DNA from: an uncultured Solirubrobacterales bacterium
GTDB lineage: Bacteria > Actinomycetota > Thermoleophilia > Solirubrobacterales > 70-9
Assembly (NCBI GenBank): GCA_903939845.1
Contig: CAJAIJ010000050.1
Span: 1 to 64,000, forward strand
Reading direction: 5' to 3'
DNA length: 64,000 bases
The notes under the pieces were generated by a model, which saw only the letters and a program-made list of their open reading frames with translations, was not told the origin of the DNA and did not search any database. Numbering within the stretch: position 1 is the first letter of the stretch; every line of letters starts with the position of its first letter. Below are positions 2,881 to 33,160 of this stretch, piece after piece. The position numbers and the translations under genes are program-made.

Positions 2881-4505
2881 GGCGGCTGGTGACGATCGGG
2901 GGGATCGGGCTGCTCGTAGTCCTGATGGTGCTCGTGCTGAGGGCCGTCAACGGGGACGACGATCCCTACAAGGTCAGGGCCGTGTTCGACAACGGAGCAT
3001 TCGTCGTCCCGGATGTCGACGTCCGGGTTGCCGGAGCCAACGTCGGCAACGTCGATTCGATCGACGTCTCCCAGCCCGATGAGGTCGTAACCGATGACCC
3101 CGATGACCCCTACCGTCCGGGCAAGGCCATCGTCGTACTCAACATCACCGACCCGGCCTTCAGGGATTTCAGGGACGACGCCTCATGCATCATCCGTCCG
3201 CAGTCTCTGATCGGCGAGAAGTTCCTCGACTGTGACGTCACCCAGCCCCGTCCGTCCGGAAGCCCGCCGCCGCCCCAGCTCGAGGAGATACCGGAAGGTC
3301 AGCCCGGCGCCGGCCAGTACCTGCTCCCGCTCGAGAACAACGGCCGGTCCGTCGATCAGGACCTGATCAACAACATCTACCGGTTGCCGTACGCCCAGCG
3401 ATTCCGGATCATCCTCAACGAGCTCGGGGTCGGTCTGGCCACCCGCGGGCCGGAGCTCAGGGAGACGATCACCCGGGCCAACCCGACCCTGCTCGAGGTC
3501 AACCGGGTCCTGAAGATCCTGTCCTCCCAGAATCGCAGGCTCGCCGAGCTCGCCAGGAACGGCGACAACAACCTCACCCTCCTGGCGGCCAAGCGCAGGA
3601 ACATGGTCGGCTTCTTCCGCTCGGCCGGGTACACGGCCGGAGCCACCGCCGAGCGCAGCGACGACATGCGGGAGAACCTGAGGAACCTTCCGACCACGCT
3701 GAGGTCCCTGCGAGAGACCTTCGGTGCCCTGAAGACCTTCGCCAGCGACACCCGTCCGACCATCGAGGCCCTCCAGCCGAACGCGAAGCAGATCGCCGAG
3801 GTCACGAAGAAGCTCCAGCCCTTCGCGGAAGCCAGCCAGATCTCGTTCGAGAGCCTCGGTGCTGCAACCAGGACGGCCGGACCCGACCTGATCGCTTCGA
3901 GGCCGATCATCCAGAAGCTGGGCGACCAGGCCCGCTCGGGCAAGGAGCCCTTCACGGATCTCAACTTCTTCCTCGGCAGCACCCGTACGGCCGACGGCTT
4001 CCGGAACCTGATGCGGTTCTTCTACAACACCGGCAGCGCCCTTTCGGGCTATGACCAGTTCGGTCACTACCAGCGGACGAACGTGATCATCACCGGCTGC
4101 ACCGAGTACAAGCTGGCCAGGTTCAGCAACTGTCCGACCCAGTGGGACTTCACCCGATCGGCCGTGACCTCGGCCGCCCGCGAGGTCATGCCCGACCTCG
4201 AGATCGGCCTGCCGGAAGCCGGCGACCTCGAAGCCCCGCAGGGTCCGACGGATGAGTCCGAAGGGGCCCTCGGTCCGACCGATGAAGCCGAAGATGAGTC
4301 CGGGGCGACCGGTGACTCTGACTCTCAGGGCACGCTCGAAGGAGTGAGCCCGTCCAGCCCCGAGCCGGCCTCGACACCGGACGGACAGACGGTCGCGGAT
4401 CGAACCACGGGAGGTTCGGCCGGATCGGGTTCCGGGGTCCGGGGACCCCGGGCGGCCAGGGCGGCAACGAGGATGGCGATCATGGAGTACCTGCTGGGAC
4501 GATGA
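2877..4505 (+). CDS. MCE/MlaD family protein 2 of 6
   Basis: N-terminal TM; AVFDNGAFVVPDVDVRVAGANVGNV; GTG at 2877 overlaps previous stop; acidic low-complexity C-terminus. Confidence 0.88.
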   Translation: MRRLVTIGGIGLLVVLMVLVLRAVNGDDDPYKVRAVFDNGAFVVPDVDVRVAGANVGNVDSIDVSQPDEVVTDDPDDPYRPGKAIVVLNITDPAFRDFRDDASCIIRPQSLIGEKFLDCDVTQPRPSGSPPPPQLEEIPEGQPGAGQYLLPLENNGRSVDQDLINNIYRLPYAQRFRIILNELGVGLATRGPELRETITRANPTLLEVNRVLKILSSQNRRLAELARNGDNNLTLLAAKRRNMVGFFRSAGYTAGATAERSDDMRENLRNLPTTLRSLRETFGALKTFASDTRPTIEALQPNAKQIAEVTKKLQPFAEASQISFESLGAATRTAGPDLIASRPIIQKLGDQARSGKEPFTDLNFFLGSTRTADGFRNLMRFFYNTGSALSGYDQFGHYQRTNVIITGCTEYKLARFSNCPTQWDFTRSAVTSAAREVMPDLEIGLPEAGDLEAPQGPTDESEGALGPTDEAEDESGATGDSDSQGTLEGVSPSSPEPASTPDGQTVADRTTGGSAGSGSGVRGPRAARAATRMAIMEYLLGR

Positions 4506-5986
4506 GTACGGGATCGACAGCCAAGCCCGGCGGAAAGGCCCGGATCTCTTCCAGCCCCCTTCTGGTGGGGGCGGTCGCGACCGTGATCGCGTTGGTCGGG
4601 GTCTTCTTCTCCTACAACGCCAACACGGGACTCCCGTTCGTGCCGACCTACAAGATCACCGCAGAGCTCCCGTCTGGCGGCTTGCTGGTCAATGGCAACG
4701 AGGTCAGGATCGCCGGGGTGAGGGTCGGCACCGTCTCCAACATCAAGCCCGTGCAGCTCGATGACGGCGAGACGATCGTCGAGCTCGAGATGAACCTCGA
4801 CCAGAGCGTCCGGCCGATCCCTGACGACTCCACGATCGTGATCCGACAGCGGTCCGCGCTCGGCCTCAAGTACCTGCTGCTCACTCCCGGCGACTCGAGC
4901 GACGGGATCCCCCAGGGAGGGACCCTGCCGATCAGCCAGGCCGTCCCCGAGCCGGTCGATCAGGATGAGTTCTTCAACATGTTCCAGCCCGATGTCCGTC
5001 GGGCGATACAGGAGAACTTCGCCGGCTACGGCGGTGCCCTGGCGGCGAGGGGTGATGCGATCAACCGGATCATCGGACAGCTTCCCGGTCTTCTGGAGGT
5101 GGCGAAGCCGGTCACCAGGAACCTGGCCTCGGAGGAGACCGACCTCGAAGGGTTCGTCAAGGGCCTCAGCCAGGCCGCAGCTGAAGTCGCACCTGTTGCC
5201 GACCTCCAGGCCGACAACTTCGTCCAGCTCGAGACCACCTTCGACGCGCTCGCGACCGTGGCACGGCCATACATGCAGGACTCGATCACCGAGAACGTCA
5301 AGACCCAGAAGGTGATCCAGCGGGAGGGCCCGAGGATCCGGCCGTTCCTCTACGCCTCGGCCCGGTTCGCGAGGGCGCTCAAGCCGGCCGCGGTGGCGCT
5401 CGGAGAGAGTGCCCCGGCCGTGAACCGGTCCCTGACCAAGGGCATTCCAGTGCTCAGGTCATCGCCCCGCCTGAACGACCAGCTCGGTCCGACGGCCCGG
5501 TCGCTCCGGCTGTTCGGCGAGAGCGCCGTTGTCAATACCGGGATCGACGACCTGATCGCCACCAATGAGAACCTGAGGCCATTCCTCCGGTTCTTCGCCC
5601 CGTCCCAGAACGTCTGCAACTACCTGGCGCTGTTGCTGAGGAATGCACAGGAGGTCGCTTCTACCGGCAACGAGCGCGGTCGCTGGATCCGGGCGATCAG
5701 CATCCTGCCCCCGGTGGGCACCGATGCCGAGGGGATGCCGGCTGCCGCTCCGGCCAATGGTGGAGCCCCGCTGCCCCAGTACGACACACCCGACCAGCGG
5801 GCGAGCAACTTCCTTCACTCGAACCCCTACCCGTGGACCGCCGCTCCCAGTCAGCCGAGGGTCTGCGCTGCCGGCAACGAGGGCTACACGGTAGGCCAGC
5901 AGGTGATCGGCAACGGTGACGCGGTCGACACGATCCTCACCAACGACCAGTCCGAGAAGCAGCTGAACTGGGGGCTGAACCCATGA
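4502..5986 (+). CDS. MCE/MlaD family protein 3 of 6
   Basis: YKITAELPSGGLLVNGNEVRIAGVRVGTVSNI; 4-bp overlap with previous gene. Confidence 0.9.
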   Translation: MSTGSTAKPGGKARISSSPLLVGAVATVIALVGVFFSYNANTGLPFVPTYKITAELPSGGLLVNGNEVRIAGVRVGTVSNIKPVQLDDGETIVELEMNLDQSVRPIPDDSTIVIRQRSALGLKYLLLTPGDSSDGIPQGGTLPISQAVPEPVDQDEFFNMFQPDVRRAIQENFAGYGGALAARGDAINRIIGQLPGLLEVAKPVTRNLASEETDLEGFVKGLSQAAAEVAPVADLQADNFVQLETTFDALATVARPYMQDSITENVKTQKVIQREGPRIRPFLYASARFARALKPAAVALGESAPAVNRSLTKGIPVLRSSPRLNDQLGPTARSLRLFGESAVVNTGIDDLIATNENLRPFLRFFAPSQNVCNYLALLLRNAQEVASTGNERGRWIRAISILPPVGTDAEGMPAAAPANGGAPLPQYDTPDQRASNFLHSNPYPWTAAPSQPRVCAAGNEGYTVGQQVIGNGDAVDTILTNDQSEKQLNWGLNP

Positions 5987-14329: not shown

Positions 14330-16431
14330 CCAGCCTCTCGAATCCCGGTCCGTTCGGCCGTCTGGGCCGGTGGACCGCGACCCACTTCGGACTCGTCGCG
14401 GTGATCTGGCTGGTGGTAGCCGTCGGCCTCGGCTTCTTTGCCCCTCGCGTAGAGCACGCTCTTTCCGGCGCCGGATGGGAAGCGACCGGTTCCGAATCCC
14501 TGTCTGTAAGAGAGACGGTAGACGAGAACTTCGGAGGCATGTCCTCCTCGGCCCTGATGGTCGTAGTCAAGGGCGACGGTGTGACCGCAAAGGATCCCGA
14601 GTTCCGTCAGGCAGTTACCGAGGTCGAGGGAATTCTCGCCGCCAATGAGGACGTCTCTCAGGTAGTGGTCGATCCCATGTGGATCTCGAGAGACGGGGAG
14701 ACGGTCGTCGTCCAGGCAGGTGCCGCAGCCGACTCGAACCAGATGGTCCGGGTCGCCGACGACATCAAGGACGAGATCTCTGAGGCCGGAACCCCTGCGG
14801 TGTCGGCATCTTTGACCGGTGCGTCGGGCATGTGGTCCGACTTCAACAAGGCCAACAAGGACGCGATGATCAAGTCCGAGTTGATCTCGTGGCCGGTGAC
14901 CCTCGCGATCATGTTGCTTGCGTTTGGCTCTCTGGTTGCGGCCGGGTTGCCGCTGATGCTGACCATCATCGGACTCGTGGCGGCGGCCGGCTCCCTGTAC
15001 CTCGGGGCCCAAATCGCCGATATCTCGATCTGGGCACTGAACTTCGCCTTGATGTTCGCCCTCGCATTGGGGATCGACTATGCGCTCTTCATCGTGTATC
15101 GGTTCAGGGGGGCACTAACCGACGCCGATTCCCCGCTCGATGCGATCGAGACCACGATGGATACTGCGGGAAAGGCCGTCTTCTTCTCGGGCCTGACCGT
15201 CCTCATCTCGCTATCTGCGGTGTTGCTGGTCCCCAGTCCGGCCTTCCGGTCGATGGCGATCGGGATCATGCTCTCGGTCATCTTCGTGCTGGCGGCATCG
15301 ATGACGTTGCTACCGGCCGTGCTGGGCAAGATCGGACCGAAGGTCAACAGCATCTCGCTGCCCTGGGTTCATTCCGGCGAGCATCGCTCGCCTCTGTTTG
15401 CACGGTGGGCCGAGTTGCTCTGGCGCCGACCCCTCTGGTTCGGGATACCGGCGCTTATCGCGCTGGTGGCGATCGCCTTGCCGATCTTCTCGCTCGATAC
15501 CGGCATGCCTTCGATCAAGGTCGTCCCTGAGGACAAGCAGTCCAGACAGGGTTACGAACAGCTGACCGCGGCGTTCGGACCGGGCGCGCCCGGCACCCTC
15601 CAGATCGTCACCCCGTCCGAGGGTGCCGACGATGTGGTCGAGGTCGCCGGTGCGGATGAGGGCGTGGCGGTGGTGTTTCCCCCCATGCAGGGCAAGGGGG
15701 GAAACTCCCTGATCCTTGCCGTCCCGGCCGATGACCCCTCTTCGCCGGTGGTAGGGGACACGCTCGATCGACTCCGTGAGGACCTGCCCGCGACCGCGCT
15801 GGTGGGCGGGGCCGCAGCCGAGAACTTCGACCTCGAAGACGCGCTCGCCGGGAAGACGGCCCTCGTGATCGGGGTCGTCCTGGCCCTCGGCTTCCTCCTC
15901 CTGTTGGTAGCCCTGAGGGCACCGGTGCTGGCGTTCCTCGCGGTAGTGACCAACCTGCTCGCGGTAGGTGCCGCGTTCGGGGTCGCGAAGCTCGTCTTCC
16001 AGGACGGCAACCTCTCGGGCCTGTTCGGGTTCGAGTCCCAGGGGTTCCTCGACGCCTGGGCCCCGGTGTTCTTCTTCGCGATGATCTTCGCGATATCGAT
16101 GGACTACTCGGTGTTCCTGCTCAGTTCGGCTCGCGAACACTACGAGAGATCGGGCGACCCCAAGGACGCCATGATCAACGGCGTCGCCCATTCGGGGAAG
16201 GTGATCTTTGCCGCTGCGGCGGTGATGGTCGCGGTGTTCTTCACCTTCGCCCTCTCCGGTCCGCTCCCGCCGAAGGAGATGGGCATCATTCTCGGGGTCG
16301 CCGTCCTTCTGGATGCTCTTTTGGTTCGGCTGCTACTGCTGCCGGTCCTGATGAGACTCGTCGGGAAGTGGGCCTGGTGGTTGCCTTCCTGGGCCGACCG
16401 GATCCTGCCGAAAATCAGCTTCGCCCATTAG
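14326..16431 (+). CDS. MMPL/RND-family transporter
   Basis: About 12 hydrophobic segments; FALMFALALGIDYALFIVYRFR and FAISMDYSVFLLSSARE motifs; ATGA overlap with upstream gene. Confidence 0.93.
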   Translation: MTSLSNPGPFGRLGRWTATHFGLVAVIWLVVAVGLGFFAPRVEHALSGAGWEATGSESLSVRETVDENFGGMSSSALMVVVKGDGVTAKDPEFRQAVTEVEGILAANEDVSQVVVDPMWISRDGETVVVQAGAAADSNQMVRVADDIKDEISEAGTPAVSASLTGASGMWSDFNKANKDAMIKSELISWPVTLAIMLLAFGSLVAAGLPLMLTIIGLVAAAGSLYLGAQIADISIWALNFALMFALALGIDYALFIVYRFRGALTDADSPLDAIETTMDTAGKAVFFSGLTVLISLSAVLLVPSPAFRSMAIGIMLSVIFVLAASMTLLPAVLGKIGPKVNSISLPWVHSGEHRSPLFARWAELLWRRPLWFGIPALIALVAIALPIFSLDTGMPSIKVVPEDKQSRQGYEQLTAAFGPGAPGTLQIVTPSEGADDVVEVAGADEGVAVVFPPMQGKGGNSLILAVPADDPSSPVVGDTLDRLREDLPATALVGGAAAENFDLEDALAGKTALVIGVVLALGFLLLLVALRAPVLAFLAVVTNLLAVGAAFGVAKLVFQDGNLSGLFGFESQGFLDAWAPVFFFAMIFAISMDYSVFLLSSAREHYERSGDPKDAMINGVAHSGKVIFAAAAVMVAVFFTFALSGPLPPKEMGIILGVAVLLDALLVRLLLLPVLMRLVGKWAWWLPSWADRILPKISFAH

Positions 16432-16462
16432 GAAGCCAGTCAGGAAACGAGCATGAGGTCGG

Positions 16463-16514
16463 CCGGTCGGGATGCGGAAGAGCCCCGACCGGCTTGCCTC
16501 TCCCGGTCGGGGCT
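16463..16514. terminator. Tripartite inverted repeat between MMPL gene and tRNA-Leu; likely bidirectional transcription end
   Basis: CCGGTCGGG (16463-16471), AGCCCCGACCGG (16481-16492), CCGGTCGGGGCT (16503-16514); middle arm can pair with either flank. No strong U-tract. Confidence 0.5.
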
Positions 16515-16524
16515 CGATCTCGAG

Positions 16525-16608
16525 TGCGGCTGAGAGGAGTCGAACCTCCACGTCCTTGCGGACACAGGCACCTGAAGCCTGCGCGTCTACCAGTTCCGCC
16601 ACAGCCGC
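16525..16608 (-). tRNA. tRNA-Leu (anticodon CAG)
   Basis: Reverse complement GCGGCTGTGGCGGAACTGGTAGACGCGCAGGCTTCAGGTGCC...GGTTCGACTCCTCTCAGCCGCA folds as class II tRNA with variable arm. Confidence 0.95.
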
Positions 16609-16682
16609 TCGAGGAAGGACTCTAACGAGTGCTGACGGCAGTCGTTATGGCGACTCGCAGGTTGTTAGAATCGCGTCTCTCT

Positions 16683-16754
16683 GCCGCTATCGTCTAGGGG
16701 TTAGGACGCCGGATTCTCAGTCCGGAAACCGGGGTTCGATTCCCCGTAGCGGTA
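16683..16754 (+). tRNA. tRNA-Glu (anticodon CTC)
   Basis: GCCGCTATCGTCTAGGGGTTAGGACGCCGGATTCTCAGTCCGGAAACCGGGGTTCGATTCCCCGTAGCGGTA cloverleaf. Confidence 0.95.
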
Positions 16755-16761
16755 CTCCGCG

Positions 16762-17235
16762 TCAGGCGGATGCCTCCCGATTCTCGGCCTCGCGTCCGAC
16801 CGCGGCGAGCAGGCGGCGAGTGGCGATCACGTGTCCGCCCGAGCCGATGACCAAGGTCCGGTAGAGGGTTCCGATCGGACCGGGGAACTCGGCGCGGGTG
16901 ATTACTGCGAGCTCGGTCCGACCCGATCCGAGATCCGTCAGTTCGAAGACCATCTCGTGACGGGCGAAGCGATGGCTTCCGTCCAGCGTCAGCCGTCGCT
17001 GGTCCTCGGCCGCCGCAACCCGGAATCCGGGCAAAGTCGAGCCCGCCGACAGCGGTCGCGGTCCCGAGGCCCGGAGCTCCGACGCCCCGAGGGCCCGAGC
17101 TGCCTTGCGCGACGTTCTCGACTCCAGGGACCGGGCCAGAACCTCGAGCAGTGCGTCCCAGGCGGTCTCCCGGTCTGCCCCGATCTCGATCCCGAGGCGA
17201 TCGATGAAGGGCAGCGCCTGTGCTTCTCCGACCAC
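16762..17235 (-). CDS. SRPBCC-family (START/polyketide cyclase-like) protein
   Basis: IGADRETAWDALLEVL...LAGSTLPGFRV pattern; size and C-terminal helix typical. Confidence 0.6.
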   Translation of the reverse strand: MVGEAQALPFIDRLGIEIGADRETAWDALLEVLARSLESRTSRKAARALGASELRASGPRPLSAGSTLPGFRVAAAEDQRRLTLDGSHRFARHEMVFELTDLGSGRTELAVITRAEFPGPIGTLYRTLVIGSGGHVIATRRLLAAVGREAENREASA

Positions 17236-24939: not shown

Positions 24940-25059
24940 ACCGACACGGTACCGGGACCGACGGATATGCGAGCTCACGGGGCCCGCCGGCAACTCATCT
25001 ACTGGCTCATCCGAACTACCCGGGGCCCCGTCCGGTTGCTTGCGCTACTCTGTTCGTGA

Positions 25060-25212
25060 AGTCGGTCGTGCCCCTTGTGGGGCCAGGGAATCCGGTCGAA
25101 ATCCGGAACTGGCGCGCAGCGGTAGGGACGCACTCCTGACGGCTCAAATGCCACTGGGTACAACCCGGGAAGGCAGCCGGTCAGAAGCGTCCGAGTCCGA
25201 AGACCTGTCGGC
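25060..25212 (+). promoter_or_regulatory. Cobalamin riboswitch aptamer
   Basis: CAGGGAATCCGGTCGAAATCCGGAACTGGCGCGCAGCGGTAGG...AAATGCCACTGGG...CCCGGGAAGGCAGCCGGTC...GTCCGAAGACCTGTCGG matches B12-box architecture. Confidence 0.93.
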
Positions 25213-25294
25213 TTCGTGTTCTCTCGATCTAGATGGAGAGGACGCTTCTGAAAAAGGTGGCCTCGCGCACAGGCCCGGAGAAAAAAGGACAAAA

Positions 25295-26053
25295 ATGAAC
25301 AGGTTCATCGCAGCCTTGGTGGCGGCCTTCGTGCTCGTCGCGGCTGGCCAGGCAGAGGCATCGACCGACCGGAAGGCCCCGGTGGAGGTCAGGGTCGTCA
25401 ACTGGAAGGGTGAGATCCTCGTGGACCGCCCGGTCGTGGCCCAGACCACTTCCGTTCCTACCAGCAGCAAGGCGCTCTGCTTTGGAGGCACTCCCTCCGA
25501 TGGATCGAAGATCCTCGCCGGCACGACGGCCCTGGGTGCTCTCCAGCGGGCGACGGTCGGGGTAGCCGAACTCAGGCCGCTGCTTCTGACCAACGCGTTC
25601 GACTTCGGACTCGGCGTCTGTGCCGTCGGCCGATACGCCCCGGAGGGTGAAGAGTGGTGGGCTCTGAAGGTGAACGGTTCACTGGCCACCACCGGCGGTG
25701 ACTCGACCTTCCTCGAGGCCGGAGACAGGGTCCTTTGGTACCTGGATCAGAGCTACAGCGCTCCGCTGCCCGACGAGCTCCGGTTGATAGCTCCGGCGAC
25801 GGTCAGGAGGGCATCACTTACTACCGTCCGGGTCCTCGCCTACGACGGCGAGGGCAAGGCTCGACCGGCCTCGGGAGCAAAGGTATTCGTCGGTCCGGTC
25901 CTGGCCGGTGTGACCGATTCCTCCGGCCGGATCACGGTGAGGGTTACCTCGACCGTTCGTCTGGTCGCCCGGTCGGCAGGACTCATTCCCTCCAATCGCT
26001 CGGTCATAGAGCTGGGTAATCAGACGCGCCAGCAGGCGGCACGACAGGGCTGA
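25295..26053 (+). CDS. Secreted DUF4430 (transcobalamin-like C-terminal) protein with C-terminal Ig/carboxypeptidase-regulatory-like domain
   Basis: Signal peptide; WWALKVNGSLATTGGDSTFLEAGDRVLWYLDQSY is a DUF4430-type motif; first gene after riboswitch. Confidence 0.82.
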   Translation: MNRFIAALVAAFVLVAAGQAEASTDRKAPVEVRVVNWKGEILVDRPVVAQTTSVPTSSKALCFGGTPSDGSKILAGTTALGALQRATVGVAELRPLLLTNAFDFGLGVCAVGRYAPEGEEWWALKVNGSLATTGGDSTFLEAGDRVLWYLDQSYSAPLPDELRLIAPATVRRASLTTVRVLAYDGEGKARPASGAKVFVGPVLAGVTDSSGRITVRVTSTVRLVARSAGLIPSNRSVIELGNQTRQQAARQG

Positions 26054-26065
26054 ACGGCTTCCTCG

Positions 26066-26995
26066 GTGAGAGCTCTCGTCACGGCGATCGCGTGTGGTCT
26101 GGCCCTCGCTTCGACTGGGTGTGGAGTGGGCTTCGGTCCCGGATCGGTAGACGGAGAGGTGGGGCTCTCCGTTACGAGGGACTACGGCCGGACACCGGTT
26201 GCCGGCCCGGTCGAGCATGAGCTCGGGGCCTCGGACACCGTGATGCGCCTCCTGGACCGGACCACCGAGGTCGAAACCTCCTACGGAGGCAGGTTCGTTG
26301 ATGCGATCGACGGCATCGAGACGACCGTCAGTCCGCGGAGTCGCGACTGGTTCTACTTCGTCAACGGCATCGCTGCCGAGATCGGTGCTGCCGAGTTCGA
26401 CCTGAGCTCGGGTGACTCGGTCTGGTGGGACTATCGGGACTGGACAGCGGCGATGGAGGTCGGCGCCGTGACTGGGAGCTACCCGGCGCCCCTCGCACCG
26501 GGTTCCGTGGGAGCCGGGAGTCGGGCCTCGCTCTCCTGCCGGGCGCCGGAATCCATCTGTGATCTGGCCCGTGGGCAGCTGTCCGATGACGGCGTCCAGT
26601 TCGCTCGGTCTGACGGGGGCGGAGTCAGGGTCGAGGTCGGCTCTTTCGGGGACCTCGAGGATTCCGGCCTCGACTCCGATCCGGCCGAAAGTGGCGTGTT
26701 CGCGAGGTTCGCAGGTTCTCCCGGGGGCGAGGCGACTCTGGAGTTGCTCGACCAGAACGGGGTGAGGGCAGATGTCCTGGGGCCGGGATCGGGCCTCATC
26801 GCGGCCGTCCGCGAACCCGGAGGGCCGCCGGTATGGATCGTCACCGGGACCGATGACGAAGGTGTCGAGATCGCAACCGCGGCCCTCGAACCCGAAGTGC
26901 TGGGATCCACCTATGCGGTAGCGATCACTCCCGCGGGGACCCCGGTTCCTGTGCCCGTCCCGACCGATGACAGCGGGAAAGGCGGAGGAAACTGA
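26066..26995 (+). CDS. DUF4430 (transcobalamin-like C-terminal) lipoprotein
   Basis: GTG start; lipobox ASTGC; WFYFVNGIAAEIGAAEFDLSSGDSVWWDYRDW. Confidence 0.85.
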   Translation: MRALVTAIACGLALASTGCGVGFGPGSVDGEVGLSVTRDYGRTPVAGPVEHELGASDTVMRLLDRTTEVETSYGGRFVDAIDGIETTVSPRSRDWFYFVNGIAAEIGAAEFDLSSGDSVWWDYRDWTAAMEVGAVTGSYPAPLAPGSVGAGSRASLSCRAPESICDLARGQLSDDGVQFARSDGGGVRVEVGSFGDLEDSGLDSDPAESGVFARFAGSPGGEATLELLDQNGVRADVLGPGSGLIAAVREPGGPPVWIVTGTDDEGVEIATAALEPEVLGSTYAVAITPAGTPVPVPVPTDDSGKGGGN

Positions 26996-27888
26996 AGACG
27001 CTGCTCGATCCGCCGCTCGCCTACGTTCCTTCACGCGGGCCGCTTCAGTCTGCCTCGCTCGGACCGGTCGGGATCTACCTCGGGGCCTACCTCATCGTCT
27101 GCCTGTTCTCCGGTGACCCATTGGTCCTGCTTGCCGGGACGTTGGGCGCCGCTCTGGCCGGAGTCGGTGCCGGCTGTGGCAGGGCCGTCCTCTTCTCGAT
27201 CAAGATCGGAGGCGCGATCGCGGCCCTGATGATCCTGGTCAATGGTCTGGTCACCGAGAGGGGAGCCACTGTCCTCCTCAGGCTGGGGGAGTGGCCCCTG
27301 TTCGGTGCGGTCGATGTGACCGCCGAGGCTCTGATGGCCGGTGCCGTGATCGGCCTGAGGGCTCTCGGCACGATGGTCGTGATCGGTGTCTGGTCTGCCG
27401 CAGTCGATCCCGACCGGGTCTTGACTTCGGTCCATCGGGTCGCGCGCCGGTCGGCCCTGACCGCAACCCTGGTTTCGCGACTGGTCCCTCTTGCGGTGGC
27501 AGACCAGGCCCGTCTGGCCGAGGCCTCCTCCCTGAGGGGTCCCGCGGCAACCCCGGTTGGCAAGGCGGCAGCTGCCAGGCGACTGTTGGCGGGATCGCTG
27601 GACAGGTCGGTGGACGTGGCCGCAACCCTCGAGTTGAGGGGCTACTCGATCGGCAACAAGGACTCGGCCCCTGCCCGGCGGCGCTCCCGCCACGACCGCC
27701 GGTTCCTGCTTTCAGGTCTGGCGATTCTGGCCGCGCTCACTGTGAACCTCCTGGCCGGCGGGTCGCAGTTCGACCCCTATCCCACGATCACCTGGCACTT
27801 CGGTCCGACCTCGCTCCTGCTGGCAGCAGTCCTGGTCCTGGGCGGACTGGTGACCCGTAGCGGTTCGGGAGGCATCCGTGGAAGTTGA
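26992..27888 (+). CDS. ecfT: ECF transporter transmembrane component (EcfT)
   Basis: Frame open from 26971; PLAYVPSRGPL...TM helices; coupling motifs ASSLRG and AATLELRGY. N-terminus has no ATG/GTG/TTG before 27121, CTG at 26992 or 27001 after GGAGG proposed. Confidence 0.82.
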   Translation: MKTLLDPPLAYVPSRGPLQSASLGPVGIYLGAYLIVCLFSGDPLVLLAGTLGAALAGVGAGCGRAVLFSIKIGGAIAALMILVNGLVTERGATVLLRLGEWPLFGAVDVTAEALMAGAVIGLRALGTMVVIGVWSAAVDPDRVLTSVHRVARRSALTATLVSRLVPLAVADQARLAEASSLRGPAATPVGKAAAARRLLAGSLDRSVDVAATLELRGYSIGNKDSAPARRRSRHDRRFLLSGLAILAALTVNLLAGGSQFDPYPTITWHFGPTSLLLAAVLVLGGLVTRSGSGGIRGS

Positions 27889-29536
27889 TGCCCCGATCAC
27901 GACCGACCGGCCACAGCTCCTGCTCGACGGGTTCTCATGTTCATACCCCGACTCTGACTCCTTCGCCCTGCGGGAGGTCTCGCTCACCGTCGGGTCAGGT
28001 GAGTTCGTGGTCCTGGCGGGACGGTCGGGATCGGGCAAGTCGTCGCTCCTGAAGGCCGCCTGCGGACTCATTCCCCACTTCCACGGTGGCACCGTGAGCG
28101 GGACCGTGATGGTCGGCGGCCGGGACACCTCTGAGTTCGGACCGGGGGACCTTGCAGACCTCGTCGGCTATCTCGCTCAGGATCCCGAGACCCAGGTCGT
28201 CTCGACCACCGTCTCGGCCGAGATCGAACTTCCACTCAGGTTCCGGGGTGACGGTGACGCGGCTCGCGCCCGTGCGGTCGAGGAGGTAGCCCTCGCCCTG
28301 GCGATTCCCGACCTGCTCGATCGAACGGTGGCATCCCTCTCGGGCGGGGAGCTGCAACGGGTCGCCCTTGCTGCTGCCCTGGTCACCAGACCGTCGCTGA
28401 TCCTTCTCGACGAGCCGACCTCGCAGCTCGATCCCGTTGCCGGCGATGAGCTGATCTGGCTCCTGCGTCGCCTGAACGAGGAGTGGGGGGTGTCGGTGGT
28501 CCTCGCCGAGCACAGGCTGGAGCGCTGTCTCGCCGCAGCCGACCGGGTAGTCGCAATGGACCGGGGATCGGTCGCCTTCGACGGCAGGCCGGAGGGTTTT
28601 CTCGAGTTCGCATTGGCGGTGGAGCCGGCGCTGGCGACTCCTGCCGCCCGGATGTTCTCTCTGGCCGGCCTGCCTTCGCTTCCGGTCGGGGTCAGGCAGG
28701 CCCGTTCGGCCTTGAGCGGTCTCGTTTCGGCCCCCGGTGCCGACCGGTCGGACCGAAACCGGTCCGGCGACCCAACTGTGAGGGTCGGGAACGGCCGTGC
28801 CCTGCGGTGCGAGGATCTCTGGGTCGAGCTCTCCTCGGCGGGACGTTCGGCAGATGTCCTACGGGGGGTCGATCTCGCGGTCGAGCCCGGGGAGAAGGTC
28901 GCCCTGATGGGAAGGAACGGTGCCGGGAAGTCGACCCTGCTCAGGGCCGCTGCCGGCCTCGTTCCCCCGGTGGCCGGGAAGGTCGTAGTCCGCGGCGGAG
29001 TGGCGCTCCTGACCCAGAACCCCGGCGACTACCTCGTCAGGGAGTCGGTCGGAGCCGAGCTCGAAGGTCCCGGAGGTCGAGCGGCACTCGATGCGGTCGG
29101 ACTCGAGGTCGACCCCTCGGTTGACCCGCGTGACCTCTCGGGTGGCGAGAGACAGAGACTCGCCCTGGCGATCGCCCTCGCCGGCCGGACAGAGGGCGAT
29201 GCCCTGCCCGATCTCGTCGCCCTCGACGAGCCGACCAGGGGAATGGACCGGAGCCTGAAGGACGGGCTGGCCCACCTGATCGAGACGATCGCAGAGCGGG
29301 GAGCGGCCGTCGTGGTCGCCACGCACGATGTCGAGTTCGCTGCCGGCTTTGCCGACCGCGTCATCCTGCTCGGCGATGGTGAGTTGATCGCCGACTCCGA
29401 TACAGGCGAGGTTCTCGCGGGCGGCTGGTACTTCGCGACCGAGATCTCGAGGGTGCTGGACATGCCGGGTGTCGTGACGGTCGAGGATGGAGTCGTCGCT
29501 CTGGGGCAGATGACCGGCCGGGAAGGCCCGGAATGA
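27878..29536 (+). CDS. ECF transporter ATPase, two ABC domains fused
   Basis: Two Walker A (GRSGSGKSS, GRNGAGKST) and two signatures (LSGGELQR, LSGGERQR). Confidence 0.95.
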   Translation: MEVDAPITTDRPQLLLDGFSCSYPDSDSFALREVSLTVGSGEFVVLAGRSGSGKSSLLKAACGLIPHFHGGTVSGTVMVGGRDTSEFGPGDLADLVGYLAQDPETQVVSTTVSAEIELPLRFRGDGDAARARAVEEVALALAIPDLLDRTVASLSGGELQRVALAAALVTRPSLILLDEPTSQLDPVAGDELIWLLRRLNEEWGVSVVLAEHRLERCLAAADRVVAMDRGSVAFDGRPEGFLEFALAVEPALATPAARMFSLAGLPSLPVGVRQARSALSGLVSAPGADRSDRNRSGDPTVRVGNGRALRCEDLWVELSSAGRSADVLRGVDLAVEPGEKVALMGRNGAGKSTLLRAAAGLVPPVAGKVVVRGGVALLTQNPGDYLVRESVGAELEGPGGRAALDAVGLEVDPSVDPRDLSGGERQRLALAIALAGRTEGDALPDLVALDEPTRGMDRSLKDGLAHLIETIAERGAAVVVATHDVEFAAGFADRVILLGDGELIADSDTGEVLAGGWYFATEISRVLDMPGVVTVEDGVVALGQMTGREGPE

Positions 29537-31443
29537 GTTGGCAGATCGGATCGCTGATCCTCGTCCTGCTGGTGATCGGGGTCGGCCTGATCTGGTACGA
29601 GCGCTCCCGACCGCCCTCCCAGATCGTCGCTCTGGTGGCGGTGCTGGCAGCGATGGCCGTGGCGGGCCGGGTTCTCCTGGCACCGGTTCCGAACGTGGTC
29701 GCGACGACCGACCTGGTCCTCTTCGCCGGTTACGCGCTCGGACCGGCGCCGGGGTTCGCGGTCGGTGCGATCGGTGGCCTGGTCTCGAACTTCTGGCTGG
29801 GGCAGGGGATCTGGACACCGTGGCAGATGGTCGGATGGGGCATGACCGGTGTTGCGGGCTGGCTCCTGTGGAAGGTGACCGGCGGCGGTGCCGGAAGGGT
29901 GAGGCTGGCCATCGCCTGCGGGCTGGCCGGGCTGTTCTTCGGGATGTGGATGAACTTTCAGTTCCTGGTCGGATTCGGGGGGGAGGTGAGCCTGGACCGC
30001 TACCTTGCCTTACAGGTGAGATCGATCCCGTTCGACCTGGCACACATAATCGGCAACGTAGCTTTCGCCCTGGTGGCGGGCCCCGCGATCGTTTCGGCGA
30101 TCGGGAGGTTCCGCAGTCGGTTCGAGTGGGAGCGGCTTCCCGGTACGGTCGGGGTCCTGCTGGTGGCGGTGTCCCTGACCATCGTCACCTTTGCCCCGTC
30201 CGCCGAGGCCGCCCTTTCGGATCAGGCCCGTAAGGCCAGGAACTGGGTCACAGCACAACAGAACCGCGATGGCGGGTTCGGCGTCGCGCCCGGTTCCGAG
30301 TCCTCGATCACGATTACCTCCAGGGTGATGATCGGTCTGGCAGCCGCGGACCGAAACCCTCTCGACGTTCGGCGCTCCGGCTTCAACCCTCTCGACTTCC
30401 TGCGGGCCAGGCAGAACGGGATCGACGATCCGAATGAGCTGGCACTCGCGATCCTGGCGAACCATGCGACCGGGTCCGATCCACGCAGGTTCGGATCGAG
30501 GAACCTCGTCTCGGAACTCGACCGGAACAGATCGAACGACCGGACCTTCGGCGGGAAGGTGAACGTGGCCGCATTCGCGGCGCTCGCCTTCAGGTCCGTC
30601 GGTGCAGACGGAGCGGCCCGGAACGTGGTCGACTGGATTCGTTCCGTCCAACGACCGGATGGTGGCTGGGGAGTAACTGCAACGGCCTCCAGCGACCCCG
30701 ACTCGACTGGTACCGTCCTCCAGCTCCTCTCCTCCGGAGGGGCCGCGGACCGGGCCCTCTCGTGGCTCGGATCGGCCCAGAGTTCTTCCGGGGGCTTCGG
30801 CTATCGCTCCGCCGTCAACTCCCAGTCGACCGGGCTGGTGCTGCAGGGCCTGGGTGCTCTCGGATTGAAGCCGAGCTACCTGACCAGAGGCGGCAAGTCC
30901 GGGCTCGACTACCTCCGGGCCCGACAGACCGCATCCGGTGCCATCGACTACTCGGCCGCCAGCAGCCAGACTCCTGTCTGGGTGACCGGCGACGCACTGA
31001 TCGCCCTTGCCGGCCAGAGCCTTCCCGTGGCCGCTCCGCCACGCCAGCCGATCGAGCCTGTCCCGGGAGGCGGCTCCGGCGGGTCTTCTTCCGGAAGCGG
31101 TTCCGGTGGCTCGTCCTCGGGAGGCGGAACCGGAGGTTCGGCATCGCCGGCTCCATCCGTCCCGGGAGTGAACGGGGAAGGGAGCTCCGATGGCACCGGT
31201 TCGGGCGGAGTTCAGCCGGGAGATCCCGTTCCCCTCGATCCGATCGCGCCCGATGGGGTCGCTCCCGGAGAGGCCGAGGGATCGATCTTCCAGACGACTC
31301 CGATCGCTCCGACCGAAGCCCTGTTGGCGGCCTCCGAGAGCGGTCCGAAGCCATCGCCCGTGCTGGCCGTATTGATCGGTCTGGTCACTGCGGCTGGCCT
31401 GGCCGGCCTGACCATCCTGCTGGTCAGGAGAAAGGGCTGGTGA
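29533..31443 (+). CDS. ECF S-component fused to extracellular prenyltransferase/squalene-oxidase-repeat alpha/alpha toroid and C-terminal TM anchor
   Basis: RVLLAPVPNVVATTDLVLFAGYALGPAPGFAVGAIGGLVSNFWLGQGIWTPWQM (S-component); QQNRDGGFG, QRPDGGWG, QSSSGGFGY repeats; Gly/Ser linker; VLIGLVTAAGLAGLTILLVRRKGW. Confidence 0.88.
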   Translation: MSWQIGSLILVLLVIGVGLIWYERSRPPSQIVALVAVLAAMAVAGRVLLAPVPNVVATTDLVLFAGYALGPAPGFAVGAIGGLVSNFWLGQGIWTPWQMVGWGMTGVAGWLLWKVTGGGAGRVRLAIACGLAGLFFGMWMNFQFLVGFGGEVSLDRYLALQVRSIPFDLAHIIGNVAFALVAGPAIVSAIGRFRSRFEWERLPGTVGVLLVAVSLTIVTFAPSAEAALSDQARKARNWVTAQQNRDGGFGVAPGSESSITITSRVMIGLAAADRNPLDVRRSGFNPLDFLRARQNGIDDPNELALAILANHATGSDPRRFGSRNLVSELDRNRSNDRTFGGKVNVAAFAALAFRSVGADGAARNVVDWIRSVQRPDGGWGVTATASSDPDSTGTVLQLLSSGGAADRALSWLGSAQSSSGGFGYRSAVNSQSTGLVLQGLGALGLKPSYLTRGGKSGLDYLRARQTASGAIDYSAASSQTPVWVTGDALIALAGQSLPVAAPPRQPIEPVPGGGSGGSSSGSGSGGSSSGGGTGGSASPAPSVPGVNGEGSSDGTGSGGVQPGDPVPLDPIAPDGVAPGEAEGSIFQTTPIAPTEALLAASESGPKPSPVLAVLIGLVTAAGLAGLTILLVRRKGW

Positions 31444-31447
31444 ACGG

Positions 31448-33160
31448 GTGATCGGGCGGGCCGAGGCCCTCGAGAGCATCGCCGGATCCCACTTCGAGGT
31501 GGTCGTGATCGGCGGCGGGATAACCGGCGCGGCGGTCGCCCTCGACGCAGCATCGCGGGGCTACTCGGTGGCGGTCCTGGAGGCCCACGACTACGCCTTC
31601 GGAACCTCGTCGCGATCGTCGAAGATGGTCCACGGGGGACTCCGATACCTCGAGAACTTCGATCTCGGTCTGGTCAGGGAGGCACTCCAGGAGAGGCAGT
31701 TGATGGTCCGGCTTGCCCCGCACCTCGTCTATCCGACCCCGTATCTGGTCCCGAGCTTCAGCGGGGACCGGCCCGACCGCAGGGTCGGGATCGGCCTCAA
31801 CGCCTATGACGTCCTGGCGAGCTCGAGGGCCGCGAGACAGTCACCGGGGGAAGGCGAGCGAAAGCGTTTCGGGAGACCCGGAGAGGCAGAGGGGGGATGG
31901 TCCCCCGACCGTCACCGCACGATCGATGGCGACGAAGCGGTCTCGATGATCCCGGCGCTCGGGGATCGGAGCCCCGAGTCGGCCTACCTGTTCTACGACT
32001 GCCAGACCGATGACTCCAGGCTCGTCCTGACCGCCTTCGCCGAGGCCGAGAGATACGGCGCCGTCTGCCTGAACAGAGCCGAAGTCCGGTCCGTGAACGC
32101 CAGCCGTATGAAGGCCGACACGATCGTCTTCCTCGATCGAGAGTCGGGCGAAGAGGTCTCGGTCACAGCCGACAACATCGTCAACGCGACCGGAGTCTGG
32201 GCCGACCGGATTCGGCCGGGCGAAATCGAGAGCGAGGAGGGAATCCCGAGGATCGCGCCGAGTCGCGGTACACATCTCCTCGTCGACTCCGCCTCGCTCG
32301 ACATGGGCCGCGCCGCCTGCATCGTGCCGGCCGGTGAGGGCCGAAGCATCTTCGCCCTGCCCTGGTACGGGCGGACCCTGATCGGAACCACGGATGTCGA
32401 CTATCGGGGAAGCCTCGATGCCGTGGCGGCTCCGGAGACGGATATCGAGTATCTGCTGGATGCCGTCAATGCCTTCTTCGGCTCCTCGCTCGGCCAGGCC
32501 GACATCGTCGGAGCCTACGCCGGGGTGAGGCCACTGATCAGCACCGGAGACCCGAAGAAGTCGGTCGACATCTCCCGCAAGGCCGAGCTCTACGAAACCT
32601 CGTCCGGCATGCTGACGATCACCGGCGGCAAGCTGACCACGTGGCGCCGCATGGGCAAGCAGACGGTCGATCGGATCGTCGAGCGAGCCGGTCGTATCGC
32701 CCCCTGCATGACCGACCAGATACCGCTCGGTATGGAGCTGGATCCGGCCACGGTCGACCCCCCGGAAGGGGTCGGGGAGGAGGCAGTTCGGCAGCTCGCC
32801 TTCCGCTACGGGCACATCGCCGAGAAGGTCCTCGATCTCGTCCGCAAGGATCCCGATCTCGGCCGACCGGTGGTCGAGGGCATGCCGGACCTGATGGCCG
32901 AGGTGGTCTGGGCGGTCGAGGCCGAGCAGGCTCGCGACATCGAGGACGTCCTGCTGAGGAGGACCAGGCTCGGTCTCACTGCGGCCCGGGACCTTGCCGA
33001 CGCCGTATCGGTTGCGCCGGTAGCCGAGCTCATGGCCGGCCTCCTGGGATGGACCGAGTCCGAAACTGCGGTCAGGACCGACGCCTGGCTCTCGACCGTC
33101 GAGGCCGAGGGTCTGAATCCGGCCGGTGGTCAGGCGCTGGCAGGGGCCGACACCCAATAA
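31448..33160 (+). CDS. glpD: FAD-dependent glycerol-3-phosphate dehydrogenase
   Basis: VVVIGGGITGAAVALDAASRGYSVAVLEAHDYAFGTSSRSSKMVHGGLRYLEN. Confidence 0.93.
   Translation: MIGRAEALESIAGSHFEVVVIGGGITGAAVALDAASRGYSVAVLEAHDYAFGTSSRSSKMVHGGLRYLENFDLGLVREALQERQLMVRLAPHLVYPTPYLVPSFSGDRPDRRVGIGLNAYDVLASSRAARQSPGEGERKRFGRPGEAEGGWSPDRHRTIDGDEAVSMIPALGDRSPESAYLFYDCQTDDSRLVLTAFAEAERYGAVCLNRAEVRSVNASRMKADTIVFLDRESGEEVSVTADNIVNATGVWADRIRPGEIESEEGIPRIAPSRGTHLLVDSASLDMGRAACIVPAGEGRSIFALPWYGRTLIGTTDVDYRGSLDAVAAPETDIEYLLDAVNAFFGSSLGQADIVGAYAGVRPLISTGDPKKSVDISRKAELYETSSGMLTITGGKLTTWRRMGKQTVDRIVERAGRIAPCMTDQIPLGMELDPATVDPPEGVGEEAVRQLAFRYGHIAEKVLDLVRKDPDLGRPVVEGMPDLMAEVVWAVEAEQARDIEDVLLRRTRLGLTAARDLADAVSVAPVAELMAGLLGWTESETAVRTDAWLSTVEAEGLNPAGGQALAGADTQ

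Follow-up and report, generated by a model that had tools for sequence, protein, structure and literature searches.

Positions 1 to 64,000 of contig CAJAIJ010000050.1, from an uncultured bacterium of the Solirubrobacterales (assembly GCA_903939845.1), are the stretch of DNA analyzed here, which is referred to as the window. It harbors a riboswitch-led operon that encodes an energy-coupling factor (ECF) transporter together with exported DUF4430 proteins and an extracellular toroid, and it is probable that the whole constitutes a dedicated cobalamin or corrinoid ECF importer in which the DUF4430 domains and the toroid act in capture. Import of vitamin B12 or another corrinoid by this operon is in itself highly probable, with B12 as the predicted ligand, and it is backed by the riboswitch, by the homology of the S-component to CbrT, by an auxotrophic genome and by the phylogenetic profile. 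The first-pass annotation, made from the letters alone, had proposed such an importer, and all the parts that it listed (the riboswitch, two exported DUF4430 proteins, EcfT, a fused EcfA-EcfA and an S-component carrying a toroid) were recovered with RF00174, Pfam, phmmer and AlphaFold2.

The operon opens with a cobalamin riboswitch aptamer at 25046-25226 (cmscan with RF00174, 92.2 bits, E 1.4e-21, against a gathering score of 31.5), which spans model positions 1-189 of 189 and is thus full length; its 5' edge lies 14 nt before position 25060, where the first-pass annotation had placed the start of the system. A genome search found this to be the sole RF00174 copy. It is followed, all on the forward strand and almost without gaps, by the genes for the two DUF4430 proteins, D1 (25295-26053) and D2 (26066-26995), EcfT (26992-27888), the fused EcfA-EcfA ATPase (27878-29536) and the S-component-toroid fusion protein of 636 amino acids (29533-31443). 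The same gene order is found again in many Solirubrobacterales genomes, and this recurrence excludes a chance association. RF00174 lies ahead of the cluster in 20 of 20 scanned Thermoleophilia relatives in which the upstream DNA is present, comprising 17 of 17 Solirubrobacterales loci together with L081, L082 and L084, and no different riboswitch occupies the leader position among the scanned relatives. When adenosylcobalamin or another corrinoid is abundant, the 5' riboswitch would be expected to reduce expression, and the importer would be made when B12 inside the cell is low; in the minimum-free-energy fold of the leader, the expression platform is not clear. At one locus (L082 of G058, 16418-16806), a pair of partly overlapping RF00174 riboswitches, one on each strand, adjoins the cluster.

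The operon encodes the full set of an ECF transporter: EcfT, a pair of EcfA ATPases and an S-component. EcfT is CbiQ-like, with a marginal Pfam match (PF02361, 25.2 bits against a cut-off of 25). Where the start is conserved, ATG, GTG and TTG are all missing, and the probable CTG start overlaps the stop of D2 (CTGA); most homologues show ATGA or GTGA at this junction. The ATPase contains two ABC_tran stretches (157 bits) and has NCBIfam ECF ATPase matches. The S-component domain occupies residues 28-201 of the fusion protein (29614-30135) and is aligned by phmmer to residues 8-180 of chain A of 6FNP, the CbrT subunit, with an E value of 5.5e-12, so that significant homology extends across the membrane domain, as expected of a CbrT-type protein. 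ECF-CbrT carries both cobalamin and cobinamide (PMC5997447). This homology is the most direct evidence on the substrate besides the riboswitch. That the operon imports cobalt, nickel or another vitamin under B12 control is very unlikely. Cobalt importers too can be under B12 riboswitch control, CbiQ, which EcfT matches, is annotated as cobalt transport, and the S-component weakly matches the S families for riboflavin and folate; against this stand the match to CbrT, the lack of any CbiM/NikM match of the S protein in Pfam or NCBIfam, the transcobalamin-type fold of D2 described below, and a genome without CbiC, which has no need of cobalt for B12 synthesis.

The host genome, a metagenome-assembled genome of 1.9 Mb that is 92% complete, encodes B12-dependent MetH, methylmalonyl-CoA mutases and an adenosyltransferase, and the host is apparently unable to make B12. 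CbiC was not found in it, nor was any other B12 importer seen, and the incompleteness of the genome, which makes such absences uncertain, is to be counted against the proposal. BtuCDF was considered as a B12 importer and rejected, as the sole FecCD permease above cut-off adjoins two HtaA haem proteins; this locus (L097, G000:C51) is a haem importer cluster with two HtaA, Peripla_BP_2, the FecCD permease and an ATPase. In a set of 43 relatives of 90% or more completeness, 32 of the 34 in which CbiC is missing carry the S locus, as against three of the nine that have CbiC (Fisher p 3.3e-4, with no correction for shared ancestry). The cluster tends to be missing from B12-making relatives, a distribution expected of a system that scavenges this vitamin.

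On the extracellular side, D1 and D2 have a DUF4430 domain in common (profile match, E 1.1e-5), and both exceed the Pfam PF14478 cut-off of 23.8. D1 has a signal-peptide-like N-terminus and would be secreted, with its DUF4430 match (28.5 bits) at 25649-25747, in a C-terminal transcobalamin-like domain. D2 has a lipobox-like N-terminus (LASTGC), as in lipoproteins, a DUF4430 domain at 26234-26437 (54.2 bits) and an extra C-terminal alpha/beta domain. The AlphaFold2 model of D2, built from 16 aligned sequences (mean pLDDT 74.6), was compared with the PDB by Foldseek: the DUF4430 structure 3u7z is matched first, followed by the beta-domains of transcobalamin, haptocorrin and intrinsic factor, with E values from 1.4e-4 to 2.3e-3 and TMt up to 0.69. 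Structures of the isolated beta-domain of human transcobalamin (5no0, 5np4) give TMt values of 0.65-0.69; complete transcobalamins, haptocorrin and intrinsic factor also match. The transcobalamin-like nature of DUF4430 claimed by the first-pass annotation is thus upheld for the fold of D2, whose modelled DUF4430 domain matches the transcobalamin beta-domain, and for D2 only. The second domain of D2 (residues ~154-300; 26525-26965) resembles in Foldseek the N-terminal domains of alpha-glucuronidases and of GH67, GH84 and GH115 enzymes, as well as parts of BcsB, and the modelled domain may bind cell-wall glycan.

The toroid corresponds to residues ~230-505 of the fusion protein (30220-31047), it is matched by Pfam PF13243 and PF00432, and its AlphaFold2 model, with a mean pLDDT of 96.1, has the 12 helices of an extracellular alpha6/alpha6 barrel. 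The first-pass annotation had assigned this half, too, to a transcobalamin-like clamp, and as regards its nearest relatives this needs correction. Several results weigh against a capture device of the transcobalamin type. The nearest neighbours of the toroid by sequence and by fold are terpene cyclases (squalene-hopene cyclases and drimenyl diphosphate synthase), glycosidases come next by fold, and transcobalamin is not among its best 50 Foldseek matches. Neither D1 nor D2 is significantly related to transcobalamin by sequence profiles alone. In the clusters of family f4, riboswitch, D1, D2, T, AA and S occur without a linked toroid, and the genomes of this family hold only a distant, unlinked toroid elsewhere (G042, L110 at ~3803-4898; matches in G039, G045, G048 and G051), the copy of G042 having a signal-peptide-like start. 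A relationship of the toroid to the alpha-domain of transcobalamin was also tried by sequence and gained no support, a profile-profile comparison with three transcobalamins being not significant (hhalign E 0.034, probability 1.5%); the human query was identical to chain A of PDB 2bb5 over 409 residues. That non-significant comparison aligned N-x-x-S-T-x-x-x-L-Q on both sides, which is a lead only.

The main rival explanation starts from these results: it accepts the B12 importer and proposes that the toroid does not bind B12 but serves as surface scaffold, as binder of cell wall or glycan, or as enzyme, with the corrinoid captured by D1 and D2 alone. It is possible, but less likely than not. 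The proximity to cyclases and glycosidases and the f4 clusters speak for it, and D1 and D2, as two proteins of the transcobalamin-beta type, could pair with one another. An S-D-x-D-x-T motif in the toroid also recalls the DxDD of class II terpene cyclases; against an enzyme, the corresponding residues here are D-P-D-S, the fourth position is D in nine of 23 homologues, and the full motif is lost in most of them, while one of its Asp residues is invariant. The toroid is probably non-catalytic. Its invariant polar residues (S40, S170, D173, N212, S215, T216, Q262 and T263 numbered as in the modelled fragment) are found at the starts of helices or next to them. Against the rival it also counts that throughout Thermoleophilia the toroid keeps company with genes for DUF4430 and ECF proteins, that in other actinobacteria a separate toroid gene adjoins DUF4430-like and ECF genes, and that fusions of a toroid with a transcobalamin-beta domain exist in other bacteria and in animals (PMC1796856). 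The link of the toroid to B12 rests on this gene context.

The S-component and the toroid form a single open frame in 38 of the 61 relatives examined, and the in-frame stops of G037 and G046 fall past the toroid, so that both of these are true fusions as well. Between the two parts of the protein, at residues ~206-228 (30148-30216), hydropathy reveals a hydrophobic helix that ends in A-x-A, and nearly all of 24 homologues have such a hydrophobic stretch and A-x-A ahead of the toroid. Judged from these sequences, the junction resembles a signal peptide left over from a time when the toroid had its own gene. A locus from another order of the same class (L084) has S-component and toroid as separate genes with a GTGA overlap, and the product of its toroid gene carries a signal peptide; G058 encodes a secreted toroid between D1 and D2, and in G052 the toroid lies on a different contig from the S gene and has a signal-peptide-like start. 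It has to be considered, then, that signal peptidase cuts the fusion, in which case S-component and toroid would be two proteins without a tether and only their synthesis would be coupled. This alternative, which is compatible with B12 import, falls only slightly short of an even chance. The A-x-A junction and the arrangement in L084 are in its favor, as is a second anchor on this protein, a C-terminal transmembrane segment after a Gly/Ser/Pro linker (residues 613-631; 31369-31425; hydropathy). Some homologues (L034, L036 and L037) lack this anchor and end just past the toroid, and cleavage there would release it, which argues against the alternative. The tether to the transporter proposed by the first-pass annotation is qualified by this signal-peptide-like join, at which the protein may be cleaved.

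Returning to the importer with DUF4430 and toroid capture, the following sequence of events is proposed. The CbrT-like S-component, EcfT and the fused EcfA-EcfA would form an ATP-driven importer. On the outer side, D1 and the lipoprotein D2 would present transcobalamin-type beta-grasp domains, and the toroid would be displayed beside the S-component. The corrinoid would then be held between a DUF4430 domain and the toroid, much as transcobalamin holds B12 but with the two halves as separate chains, and be handed on to the S-component. The two halves do reside on different proteins, as the first-pass annotation had held, with the toroid on 29533-31443 and DUF4430 on D1 and D2. That toroid and DUF4430 close round B12 and hand it over to the S-component is an evenly balanced proposal. 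A narrower version, a split two-chain transcobalamin in which the toroid borne by the S-component closes round B12 with a DUF4430 half that is either lipid-anchored or secreted, the capture device delivering straight to the S-component, is put forward tentatively, as somewhat less than an even prospect. In ECF importers, the S-component itself is described as serving as the binding protein, and there is normally no separate one. Co-encoded transcobalamin-like capture proteins would add an extracellular stage to a B12-specific ECF importer, and they would suggest how actinobacteria without B12 synthesis compete for this vitamin.

The outline of such a system was already predicted in 2007. In the passages concerned, Burroughs et al. 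described bacterial transcobalamin-like domains, fused to toroids, as paired extracellular paralogues, in operons with CbiO and CbiQ and in hosts without B12 synthesis, predicted B12 scavenging, and proposed that the animal proteins derive from bacteria (PMC1796856). The operon of the window shares with their SLBB (DUF4430) operons the exported DUF4430 proteins, often two, the toroid, the ECF ATPase and T genes and a host that apparently lacks B12 synthesis; in theirs, however, the toroid is fused to DUF4430, whereas in the window the S-component is its fusion partner and DUF4430 lies on proteins of its own. Those passages mention neither an S-component nor a riboswitch (PMC1796856). What is new is the fusion of S-component and toroid with DUF4430 partners in trans, and a literature search, which missed most subscription journals, found no report in which a toroid is joined to an S-component. 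The fusion provides evidence of physical linkage for the 2007 prediction that animal B12 carriers came from bacteria. Toroid and DUF4430 also offer a simple two-component system for asking whether both contribute to one B12 site. With animal transcobalamin, intrinsic factor and haptocorrin, the operon shares the beta-domain fold in D2 and the presence of an alpha6/alpha6 toroid; it differs from them in that the halves are on different chains rather than on one, and in that the toroid is nearer to terpene cyclases.

Among characterized transporters, ECF-CbrT of Lactobacillus delbrueckii (PMC5997447, PDB 6FNP) has a homologous S-component, EcfT and two ATPases, but CbrT has no toroid and its ECF module is common to several S-components, whereas here one operon encodes the module along with its S-component and with capture proteins, and the two ATPases are joined in a single chain. 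In acI actinobacteria, riboswitch-led ECF modules were noted in 2017 as putative B12 transporters; they resemble the present system as actinobacterial ECF modules under a B12 riboswitch in B12 auxotrophs, and differ from it in that the passages on them describe no toroid or DUF4430 (PMC5301498). The Streptomyces SCO2321-type clusters (NF053823) also have a toroid near EcfT, EcfA-EcfA and S genes, theirs being a separate gene, and the toroid of the window lies outside that family, with 103.9 bits against a curated cut-off of 300. Unlike here, RF00174 was not found at the SCO2321-type loci (L071, L072 and L086; three of three scanned), so that their regulation or substrate may differ.

Two further features of the window were noticed. 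A glycerol-3-phosphate dehydrogenase-like gene (31448-33160) begins 4 nt past the stop of the S-component-toroid gene, and its homologue also lies 3' of the cluster in many relatives. Near the start of the window, at 245-412, there is a c-di-AMP riboswitch (72.6 bits).

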